Shown piece after piece: positions 11,397 through 16,308 of a stretch of DNA of 64,000 bases (positions within the stretch are counted from its first letter, which is position 1; each line of letters starts with the position of its first letter). The stretch is from Gammaproteobacteria bacterium (GTDB lineage: Bacteria > Pseudomonadota > Gammaproteobacteria > QNFE01), in NCBI GenBank assembly GCA_003645455.1, contig QNFE01000007.1, positions 1-64,000 on the forward strand. Reading direction: 5' to 3'. The notes below the pieces were generated by a model. That model was not told the DNA's origin. It ran no database searches and saw only the letters and a program-made list of their open reading frames with translations. A program made the translations under genes and the position numbers.

Positions 11397-11502
11397 TTTT
11401 AAAAATTAAATTTTAAGATAGGTTTTGATAAGACTCAATCCCATGAAAAGCAATTATTTTTATCACAACTATACCATAAATAGAAGTTTTATACAACAAA
11501 AC

Positions 11503-11802
11503 TTATCTTATTTGCATAGCCACTTTTTGCCCTGTTTTATCAAGCATATCAAGCAAAGCATCAATCGTAAATTTATCAGTTTTACCCTGTGCTATATCAG
11601 ATATTCTGGGACGATGCACTTTTAAAATAGTTGCAGCTCGTGCTTGGGTAAGTTGTTTATTTTTTAACCACTTTTCAATCTGGCACATAAGCTGTGATTT
11701 GATTTTAAGTTTAGTAGCAACAGCCGAACTAAAACCCAAATCAACAAAAATATTACCATCAGTTGGAGTTATATGCTCTATTTTGTCCTCAATATTATTC
11801 AT
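11503..11802 (-). CDS. XRE-type antitoxin (HigA-like)
   Basis: HTH 'WLKNKQLTQARAATILKVHRPRISDIAQGKTDKFTIDALLDML'; overlaps upstream RelE-like toxin gene. Confidence 0.8.
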   Translation of the reverse strand: MNNIEDKIEHITPTDGNIFVDLGFSSAVATKLKIKSQLMCQIEKWLKNKQLTQARAATILKVHRPRISDIAQGKTDKFTIDALLDMLDKTGQKVAMQIR

Positions 11803-12137
11803 AAATTACCACCTCTTTTTATTACCATAAAACGTTTTTTTGCAATTTTTATATCCTGCTGTGATGTTTTTTGGCTTTTTTTGTTAAACGAATGTAAAAC
11901 ATATATTTTTTCACCAAAATTAGCGATATAAATAATTCTGTAATTCCCATCCGAATCAGTTAGACGAATTTCTTTTACACCACTACCAATGGTTTTCATA
12001 TGTTTGTAATTATCAGGCTCTAAACCACTTTGCACACGATGGAGTTGATAACCTGCCATTTTTTTAACTCCATCTGGAAATTTAAGCAAATCCTTATAAC
12101 TGCTGCCAATCCAATAAATAGGTTTTTCATCAATCAT
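11799..12137 (-). CDS. RelE/HigB-like toxin (phage Gp49-like)
   Basis: MKTIGSGVKEIRLTDSDGNYRIIYIANFGEKIYVLHSFNKKSQKTSQQDI. Confidence 0.82.
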   Translation of the reverse strand: MIDEKPIYWIGSSYKDLLKFPDGVKKMAGYQLHRVQSGLEPDNYKHMKTIGSGVKEIRLTDSDGNYRIIYIANFGEKIYVLHSFNKKSQKTSQQDIKIAKKRFMVIKRGGNL

Positions 12138-12401
12138 AAAGCGGTATTGTATAAAATTATATACACAATAGCAAATTTTTTATTTTAATTTAGCACTTTT
12201 AAGCAATCAAAATCTTTGATTTTGGGGGTTCGTGTATAATTAATAATTGATGATTGAGAATGGATAATTAAAAATCACCCACAACAAAACCACACACCAA
12301 AAATAATCATGTCATAACGAGGCGGACGAGAATAATTGATAATTGATAATTAACAGTTATTAGTTTAAAATCCGCTATTAATTTTTAACTAATAACTATT
12401 A

Positions 12402-12560
12402 GAGACCTTTGCATAATTCAAGCACAATTTATAAAACACATAAAATGCACCTTTTCATAGCAAAAATTCGTCAAAGGACTTGCCATTTTCCTTATTTTTA
12501 CTATAAAAATGCACTATTTTCTGCATTCTCTAAACAGCACTTGAATTATGCAAAGGTCTC
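12402..12560. mobile_element. 159-bp MITE, copy 1
   Basis: Terminal inverted repeats GAGACCTTTGCATAATTCAAG; flanked by TATTA on both sides; near-identical to the reverse complement of 24577-24735. Confidence 0.88.
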
Positions 12561-12574
12561 TATTAACTATATAG

Positions 12575-12915
12575 ACTGCCATATCTCTTGTTACTGTCGT
12601 CACTGCGAGCGAACTTGTGAGCGTGGCAGTCTCTTGACCCCTATGAGATCGCCACACTCGCAGGCTCGTTCGCGATGACGGCTTCTTTTGTTTGTTCGTT
12701 ATGACTTAGATTTTTTACCAACCATATCTTGCCAATAGTTGGGGGTGACGTGCCTTTGAAATTATTCCTGTTGCAAGCGGTAAAATAGTCCGTCATAACG
12801 AGGCGGACGGAATAAGTATGTAATGTAGGATAGTAAACCGCCGTGGTTATCTCTTGTTATTGTCCGTATGCCAAATAGAGATCGCCACACTCGCAGGCTC
12901 GTTCGCAATGACGGA
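12575..12915. repeat. Two palindromic repeat elements with CCGTCAT...ATGACGG ends, flanking a 'beta-flower' gene tail (12717-12788)
   Basis: ccgtcataacgaggcggacgg...aaaccgccgtggttatctcttg...gatcgccacactcgcaggctcgttcgcaatgacgg. Confidence 0.85.
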
Positions 12916-12927
12916 ATTTTTACTTCT

Positions 12928-13350
12928 CTAACCATCAAACCAACCTAACAATTTTTTGATAACTCCCTTATCACGAAAAGATACTTTACGATAGTTTTTA
13001 ATCAGCAACAACTCCTCATTATTGATAAAAAATTTATCATTTTTTTGTCCGCTTCCATCAGATTTATCATCACCACCATTATTATCAACAAAAACCTTAT
13101 TTGCCAACATATCACCTGTCCCATCTCGCAACCAAGCAAGCGACACCCCAAGCTTTTCAGCGATAATCGGCATCCGTGATTGATGGGGCATACTCACAGC
13201 ATTTAACCAGTGGTCCACCGCCTGGCGACTCACCCCAAACGATTGAGATAATTTTATCAAACCAGAGCGAGCATTAACAGGAATTTTCAAAGCCGTCTCT
13301 AATCTTTGAGCGAATTCATTTTTAACCGCTTGGGTTTTTAAATATGACAT
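12928..13350 (-). CDS. XRE-like HTH transcriptional regulator
   Basis: LSQSFGVSRQAVDHWLNAVSMPHQSRMPIIAEKLGVSLAWLRDGTGDM. Confidence 0.75.
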   Translation of the reverse strand: MSYLKTQAVKNEFAQRLETALKIPVNARSGLIKLSQSFGVSRQAVDHWLNAVSMPHQSRMPIIAEKLGVSLAWLRDGTGDMLANKVFVDNNGGDDKSDGSGQKNDKFFINNEELLLIKNYRKVSFRDKGVIKKLLGWFDG

Positions 13351-13483
13351 ATGGATATTAAAAAATAAAATAACCATTGTCAGTTATATCAATCAAATAT
13401 AGATTGATATTAAAATCAAATAATACTTGATTTTATAAAATTTCTAATTTATAATACCAATTTTTTATCTCACGAGGCAACTT

Positions 13484-14212
13484 ATGAAAACTTTTAACTT
13501 AAAATTTGGCAATGTAAAATTGATAAGTTTTTTATCAATTATTTTTTTAACTTTTTTTGCAGTTGGTTGTGCCGATGACTCATCTGATAGCGGTTCAGGC
13601 AGCAGTTCAGACAGCAGTTCAGACAGCAGTTCAGACGATGATACACCAACAACAGACACCACAAGTTTTATTATGAAATGGCGAGTGGGAATAGGTTATT
13701 GTTTTGAAACTGGTGTTAATATCGGCACTGTTTCAGGCTACACTTATAATTATACAGTTGATTGGGGTGATGGCACAATAGAGACTAATCAAACAACTGA
13801 TGCCTATCATGAGCATTGTTCCAGAGGTTTGTATACTGTCAAAATCAGTGGCACTTTCCCAGTGATTAAATCTACTAGTTGTGATGGTTATGCTAAGCTG
13901 GTAGCAATTGATCAATGGGGCGACCAAAAATGGCAAACTTTTAAAGATGCTTTTGCTGGTTGTTCTGATTTATCGGGTAATGCCACCGACAAACCAGATT
14001 TATCACAGGTAACAGATATGTCAAATGCTTTTAATGGTGCATCGATATTTAACCATGATATTAAAAATTGGGATGTCATTAATGTTACAAATATGAGCGG
14101 TATGTTTTCTGGTGCAACAGATTTTACACAAGATTTATCTGGCTGGGATGTCAGCAATGTAACGAGCCATGATAATTTTTGTGATAATTGCACTGAGCCA
14201 AATTGGCCTTAA
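13484..14212 (+). CDS. BspA-like DUF285 lipoprotein with PKD-like segment
   Basis: Lipobox FFAVGC, Ser/Asp-rich linker, VDWGDGTIE...[10 protein letters not shown] shared with 1-2120, then MSNAFNGASIFNHDIKNWDVINVTNMSGMF repeats. Confidence 0.85.
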   Translation: MKTFNLKFGNVKLISFLSIIFLTFFAVGCADDSSDSGSGSSSDSSSDSSSDDDTPTTDTTSFIMKWRVGIGYCFETGVNIGTVSGYTYNYTVDWGDGTIETNQTTDAYHEHCSRGLYTVKISGTFPVIKSTSCDGYAKLVAIDQWGDQKWQTFKDAFAGCSDLSGNATDKPDLSQVTDMSNAFNGASIFNHDIKNWDVINVTNMSGMFSGATDFTQDLSGWDVSNVTSHDNFCDNCTEPNWP

Positions 14213-15013: not shown

Positions 15014-15025
15014 AATAACTATCAT

Positions 15026-15277
15026 TTGCAGGTATATGGTTTTAATGGCAAACATTTGGGCTGGTTTATCAAGGGTGCGATATTCGCAACACCAAGGCAA
15101 AGCAGTAGGGGCGTCAAAAAGCGATTTAGTGGTTACACCTCACACGAGCCTTATAAGTCTTATAAAAAATATAAACCCTATAAAGGTTATAAACAATATG
15201 CTCCTTATCAACCATATCTTACCAATAGTTGGGGTGATGTGCCTTTAAAAATATTCCTGTTGCAAGGGGCAAAATAG
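15026..15277 (+). pseudogene. 4-fold beta flower-type protein, C-terminal fragment with KPYKGYK-type tandem basic tail
   Basis: VYGFNGKHLGWFIKG... then YKSYKKYKPYKGYKQYAPYQPYLTNSW; N-terminal half absent. Confidence 0.6.
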
Positions 15278-15356
15278 TTTTAGTTTTTTGCTTGCAATTT
15301 GCACTTTTAAAAAATAAATGTTATAGTTTGCTTTTTTATATCCATAATCTATCATC

Positions 15357-15596
15357 ATGCAATTAGCGATAAATGTATCTATGCCAAGTATTTTGTCTGT
15401 TATCTCTCAAATGTCTTATGATGAGATTGAAGAGATAAAAAATAAAATAATTCAACAGGAAATTTATTTTAAAAAATTCAAAAAAGACAAGATTGAGAAT
15501 GTTATATCTGACTTTAAACAAGAGGATTATTCGCAAGAATTTTTAAATGACTTAGAAAATGGTTTGAAAAAAAGTTCAATTTATAATGCAAATTAA
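15357..15596 (+). CDS. Putative antitoxin of a RelE/YafQ-type pair
   Basis: Small acidic ORF overlapping the downstream toxin-like ORF by 11 bp. Confidence 0.6.
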   Translation: MQLAINVSMPSILSVISQMSYDEIEEIKNKIIQQEIYFKKFKKDKIENVISDFKQEDYSQEFLNDLENGLKKSSIYNAN

Positions 15597-15834
15597 ACCT
15601 CTGCGAGCCGATTTACAGCTTTATCTTAAAAAACATAATTTAGAGAAAAAATTCAAAAAAGCAAAAAATTTATTTGAAACTGATCCGTTTTATCTGTCCT
15701 TAAATACAGAACTTTTAGAGCCAAAAAGCAGACTAATATATTCTTTTAGAATAGATATAAAATACCGAGCAATTTTTATTTATGTTGATAAAAATACCAT
15801 TGAAATAATAACCCTCACTAATCATTATAAATAA
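15586..15834 (+). CDS. RelE/YafQ/ParE-superfamily toxin
   Basis: MQIKPLRADLQLYLKKHNLEKKFKKAKNLF...RLIYSFRIDIKYRAIFIYVDKNTIEIITLTNHYK. Confidence 0.7.
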   Translation: MQIKPLRADLQLYLKKHNLEKKFKKAKNLFETDPFYLSLNTELLEPKSRLIYSFRIDIKYRAIFIYVDKNTIEIITLTNHYK

Positions 15835-15841
15835 AATAGAG

Positions 15842-16125
15842 AATGTAGTCAAAGAGCGATTTGCAGGTTATACTTCACATGAGTCTTATAAGTCTTATAA
15901 AAAAAAAGACAAGCCGTCATAACGAGGCAGACGGATAAAACAATACATGAAAAATAATAATCCGCCGTGGTTATCTCTTGAAAATTATCCGTCAGCCCCA
16001 TGAGATCGCCACACTCGCAGGCTCGCTCGCGATGACGATTTCTTTTGCTTGTTCGCGATGACGGCTTCTTTTTTGTTTGTTCGTTAGGGCTTAGGTTTTT
16101 CACCAATCATATCTTGCCAACAATT
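15842..16125 (+). pseudogene. Second beta-flower-type gene tail interrupted by a palindromic repeat element (about 15915-16067)
   Basis: gtcaaagagcgatttgcaggttatacttcacatgagtcttataagtcttataaaaaa aligns with 15114-15170; resumes at about 16104 'caccaatcatatcttgccaac'. Confidence 0.65.
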
Positions 16126-16145
16126 TTTTTACTATCTACCTTCTG

Positions 16146-16250
16146 TGGTAACTGGCATCAATGCAGGGGTTATAATTTTACCACGATTGAGTTTTATTCT
16201 GCCACAACGAACTTTTTTATAAGAGTTTTTAATAGCAAATTTTATTTATT
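16146..16250 (-). pseudogene. Decayed copy of the tgt 5' end
   Basis: Minus strand encodes (I)KFAIKNSYKKVRCGRIKLNRGKIITPALMPVT versus intact Tgt [33 protein letters not shown]. Confidence 0.88.
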
Positions 16251-16308
16251 TAAAGAATAAATTTAAATATATGGTATTATTGCAAAATTTTTTACACTTA
16301 CTTTATTT

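Follow-up and report, generated by a model that had tools for sequence, protein, structure and literature searches.

The stretch of DNA analyzed here (the window) comprises 64,000 nucleotides, positions 1 to 64,000 of contig QNFE01000007.1 in the gammaproteobacterial assembly GCA_003645455.1. It contains an intact tgt gene, encoding a tRNA-guanine transglycosylase of 363 aa (minus strand, 10305..11396; TIGR00430, 544.6 bits against a cut-off of 306.75), and aroB, encoding 3-dehydroquinate synthase (plus strand, 16309..17388; TIGR01357, 385 bits against a cut-off of 305). The order along the locus is the intact tgt start, ~5 kb of toxin-antitoxin-rich DNA, a decayed tgt start and then aroB. The DNA between the two tgt starts is accessory.

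Closest to the intact gene are a HigA-like antitoxin of the HTH_37 type (minus strand, 11503..11802; PF13744, E 7e-21) and a HigB/RelE-like toxin, Gp49 (minus strand, 11799..12137; PF05973, E 4e-26). A MITE with terminal inverted repeats AGAGACCTTTGCATAATTCAAG follows at 12394..12567; it has a 90% identical copy at 24743-24570, and additional copies are found at 21611-21720 and on another contig, C68 (positions 423-581), the family being 83-90% alike. Next comes a REP-like palindromic repeat (12597..12717), of which 12639-12705 is 90% identical to 15996-16062 and which has copies on C68, then a beta-flower 3'-end repeat (plus strand, 12715..12789; 89% to 15205-15278) and a further REP-like palindromic repeat (12790..12913; 80% to 15914-16037) whose family is present at dozens of genomic places. 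Beyond these lie an XRE-type regulator (minus strand, 12928..13377; HTH_3, E 3e-6) with a homologue on C68, a DUF285/BspA-like PARCEL-repeat lipoprotein (plus strand, 13484..14212; PF03382, E 4e-24; TIGR02167 repeat) with a C68 paralogue, and an ORF of 258 aa (plus strand, 14237..15013) for which searches of Pfam, NCBIfam and PADLOC gave no significant family match.

The 3' part of a first beta-flower gene fragment (plus strand, 15026..15277; positions 35-115 of the 116-position PF21784 profile, E 9.5e-13) precedes a second toxin-antitoxin pair. This consists of a putative antitoxin partner of no confident family (plus strand, 15357..15596), whose ORF overlaps that of the toxin, and a YoeB/RelE-like toxin (plus strand, 15586..15834; TIGR02116, E 3e-6, and PF05015, E 8e-4, both below curated cut-offs). 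A second beta-flower fragment, recognized by repeat matches (plus strand, 15848..16120), is split by a REP-like element at ~15911-16090. In its first part, 15848-15904 is 86% identical to 15113-15169; in its last part (~16095-16120), 16098-16120 matches the 3'-end repeat, and 0 of 1000 shuffles matched as well. The fragment ends at 16120, leaving a gap of ~17-25 bp to the tgt remnant. Known RNA families were found neither in the region nor on C68, and the region had no plasmid match.

Repeats also occur elsewhere in the window. A second DUF285/PARCEL-type repeat protein, akin to the lipoprotein described above, lies at 204-2120 and contains tandem 75-bp repeats, and a long tandem repeat (22690-23482; units of ~258 bp, ~90% alike) is located within a large ORF at 22580-24577.

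A decayed second copy of the tgt 5' end

On the minus strand, 16138-16271 duplicates the 5' end of tgt in degenerate form and in the same orientation as the intact gene. In a blastn comparison of the window with itself, 11301-11420 aligned with 16150-16271 (82% identity over 122 nt, E 8.7e-27), and tblastn aligned Tgt residues 1-36 to 16245-16138 on the minus strand (67% amino acid identity, E 4e-10). The corresponding segment of the intact gene (minus strand, 11289..11420) runs from about -24 to codon 36. When the whole 2.06-Mb assembly was searched, the tgt 5' end matched at just two places, the intact gene and the remnant, and the latter is not a chance match.

The translation of the remnant is IKFAIKNSYKKVRCGRIKLNRGKIITPALMPVTTEGR, ending in two stop symbols. 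Its start codon has changed from ATG to ATA at 16245, a TAA lies in frame directly upstream of the ATA, and a stop follows codon 37. Past codon 36 there is no significant homology to tgt, and no 3' tgt fragment is left in the window or the rest of the genome. Upstream of the start, the two copies are alike for at most ~24-30 nt, and weakly so (P ~0.02-0.05, several lengths having been tried). The remnant ATA is ~4.8 kb from the intact tgt start; on its other side the remnant adjoins aroB, whose start is ~60-70 bp beyond the ATA. Homology, loss of the start codon, truncation at ~codon 36 and relaxed constraint together mark the remnant as a tgt pseudogene.

The 33 codons of the remnant were judged too short for a full tree, and the copies were instead compared site by site, with 109 other Tgt proteins as the comparison set. 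The best of these, and the best Tgt in a collection of 84,980 species, is 64% identical. Four residues common to both copies are almost absent elsewhere, with Y9 and C14 occurring in 0 of the 109 proteins and K10 and N20 in 1 each, which places both starts in this lineage. The copies differ by 5 silent and 11 replacement changes across the 32 codons compared (dS ~0.30, dN ~0.16), and replacements in the remnant strike F29, G33 and Y35, sites that are invariant or nearly so. The two histories were simulated with parameters set by hand and on 32-36 codons only, which makes the numbers rough: with free decay of one copy after the split, 12.9% of runs came to within one of the counts observed, and long constrained divergence produced such counts in a fraction of 0.000 of 1500 runs. 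The pattern of differences resembles neutral decay after the split, and the codon comparison indicates that the copies diverged mostly after one had ceased being a gene. The intact copy has probably changed since the split as well, given that at position 28 the remnant has the Ala of 97% of the family and the intact tgt a Val that occurs in 1%.

An earlier note on this DNA, made from the sequence by itself, had described the decayed duplicate with its ATG-to-ATA change and same orientation, aroB directly after it, and an intervening set of HigBA-like, MITE, XRE, lipoprotein, beta-flower, second toxin-antitoxin and palindromic features. All of this is borne out by the blastn, tblastn and genome searches and by Pfam and NCBIfam matches, with the second toxin below threshold. 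The note had also proposed that DNA entered at the tgt 5' end and supplied a replacement start. This reading is supported in part. The architecture is as the note has it and the region is accessory, but the supply of a replacement 5' end by incoming DNA is conjectural. Both starts are of the same lineage, which makes it unlikely that a distant donor provided one of them. The same-lineage evidence argues against a foreign start, not against one from a conspecific or near-identical strain.

Origin of the duplicated start

A local duplication with insertion is the best explanation of the scar, better than a foreign element that brought a new gene start. At a probability of roughly 45%, the lineage's own tgt start was displaced by insertion-duplication and survives, dead, as the remnant. 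Incoming DNA of the same strain or a close relative of it would have carried accessory genes beside a short (~100-130 bp) tgt 5' segment and become linked to the chromosome within the tgt start, either through one homologous crossover or through homology at one end and illegitimate joining at the other. Intact tgt would since be read from the newly arrived copy, and the original start beside aroB, cut off at ~codon 36, would have decayed. We infer that insertion and duplication were one event, and likewise the direction of entry and the agency of homologous or illegitimate recombination.

A single crossover or one-sided homology would give the observed order of intact gene, insert, truncated start and old neighbor. 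The reading is further supported by the single extra copy in the same orientation, with the accessory DNA exactly between the copies and aroB close to the remnant, by the derived residues common to both copies and their decay-like differences, and by other gene ends repeated around toxin-antitoxin modules in the same genome. The recombinase content of the assembly points the same way. Just two tyrosine recombinases (PF00589; 303-307 aa) were found, one XerC-like and one XerD-like by eye and both on other contigs, and the assembly has no phage-type integrase and no serine recombinase (PF00239), although its division into 83 contigs leaves room for integrase loss or a gap and weakens this negative. 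ComEC is present in the genome, so DNA uptake is possible. Homology-facilitated illegitimate recombination (HFIR) is a documented reaction (PMC3240628). As in HFIR and Campbell-type insertion-duplication, for which no recombinase gene is required, a short homologous gene segment is duplicated on the same strand around inserted DNA; unlike the products of those reactions, the tgt case is read from an old, decayed scar that lacks a donor or a junction signature.

Several observations count against insertion-duplication. Homology upstream of the start is weak, and the native tgt-aroB intergenic arrangement is uncertain, a comparable neighborhood having been found at 0 of 119 other tgt loci. The insertion is proposed with no empty site in any relative; the collections searched yielded no close relative, the whole-genome set consisting of same-class relatives only. 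A distant genome with aroB 1.6 kb from tgt was rejected as an empty site, having another orientation and two ORFs in between, which we take by eye to be ComF-like and BioB-like. Several repeat families and independently duplicated pieces of the island suggest several steps rather than one. The junctions have no clear signature either: the longest identical run between the copies is 12 nt and internal, no identical att-like core lies on the junction side, where age could have erased one, and the junction-side third, codons 25-33, is the most diverged (8/27 mismatches, permutation P 0.07). Microhomology linking the beta-flower repeat to tgt codons 37-46 was suggestive by eye and proved no better than shuffles.

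The main rival to insertion-duplication is decay of a tandem copy, a possible though somewhat doubtful history in which a whole or long tgt duplicate stood beside aroB, accessory DNA was inserted or recombined later, and deletions left the 5' stump, duplication and island being separate events. It predicts same-lineage origin and neutral decay just as well, and the region has been repeatedly duplicated, as the beta-flower fragments and REP-like elements attest, with a truncated beta-flower/REP composite abutting the remnant. Transformation-driven tandem duplication, documented in another bacterium (PMC3784515), provides a precedent. More steps are needed, however, and the upstream regions of a tandem copy should match too, whereas similarity ends ~24-30 bp upstream of the start; the missing 3' fragment likewise tells against it.

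It is improbable that a short piece of the tgt 5' end was copied ectopically to the aroB side, by template switching or repair, in an event unrelated to the arrival of the island. The duplicated unit is short (~100-130 bp) and the window has other short gene-end copies, as such copying would have it, but it would be a coincidence that the copy has the same orientation, sits in the nearest-neighbor position and brackets the accessory DNA exactly.

Most improbable of all is a site-specific integrative element that supplied a new start at the tgt 5' end and has since lost its integrase, for although the gene start is duplicated across the island in the same orientation with the intact gene on one side, and SXT/R391 insertion at prfC is known to restore the gene with a hybrid protein (PMC7251087), the assembly has no integrase-like gene past XerC/XerD and no serine recombinase, an identical junction-side core is lacking where mismatches are densest, a supplied start is expected to be divergent, and extra tgt 5' matches are rare among 369 genomes of the class. 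Like SXT/R391 at the prfC 5' end, the tgt island sits at a gene 5' end, with the gene intact under an alternative start and the old start beyond; unlike SXT/R391, it has no integrase, conjugation genes or identical core, its starts are of one lineage, and it measures 5 kb against tens of kb. It does not look like a prfC/SXT-type insertion, a negative that age and the gaps of an 83-contig assembly weaken.

The earlier note had seen no integrase, and had called for a search for other islands with tgt 5' fragments. In the tally of 369 sampled genomes of the class, just this genome and two others (G207 and G309) have more than one tgt 5' match. IMG/VR scans in the search for an empty site gave nothing, and tgt homologues on phages (<60% identity) and plasmids (at most 60-80% over 66 residues) were distant ones only. 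Of the titles listed by a literature search, none was an evident precedent for integration at tgt.

Repeated gene ends among toxin-antitoxin modules

On contig C68 lies a sister region, where the XRE regulator and lipoprotein recur (72-76% DNA identity) and precede several toxin-antitoxin modules (PIN_3, Phd-type, DUF433/DUF5615, ParE and Unstab_antitox) that are separated by beta-flower 3' ends of ~70-120 bp. At 3172-9546 this array has about a dozen such 3'-end copies (PF21784) between modules and an integron-like look; the repeats were aligned to each other. As in chromosomal integron arrays, toxin-antitoxin modules are spaced by related repeats of ~70-120 bp; unlike in integrons, the C68 repeats encode the beta-flower C-terminus, and the tgt copy is single and not such a repeat. 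An integron reading of C68 was rejected, the assembly having no integron integrase and XerC/XerD only.

Another repeated gene end in the window belongs to an Eco57I-type restriction-methylase gene (43510-46464), whose 3' end recurs twice in the same orientation, at 43245-43343 (91% identical) and 41835-41894 (85%). A ParE-type toxin-antitoxin pair lies between the 3'-end copies, of which there are three, one intact, across 41835-43606. The C-terminus of the methylase is a motif common to other methylases in the genome, so the extra 3' ends could be the remains of lost sister genes. In the same gene, a REP-like palindrome at 45205-45277 is apparently read in frame (~residues 397-426). The palindromic elements of Rickettsia are likewise read in frame inside genes.

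The repetition of three gene ends around toxin-antitoxin modules suggests a common process, which we regard as a lead and not a result. One such process, in our estimate rather unlikely, would be that toxin-antitoxin-rich DNA accretes at gene ends without a dedicated recombinase. Short gene-end homologies (tgt 5', methylase 3' and beta-flower 3') would serve as landing sites, and each event would leave a spare gene end, so that integron-like arrays would form by ordinary recombination.

The tgt-aroB region preserves a readable scar of how the neighborhood of a housekeeping gene took in toxin-antitoxin-rich DNA and kept tgt intact. The significance of the scar alone is modest, and grows only if the gene-end pattern is general. 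If the three gene-end repeat loci share a cause, this genome would be a natural test of the integrase-free growth of arrays by homology-assisted joining.
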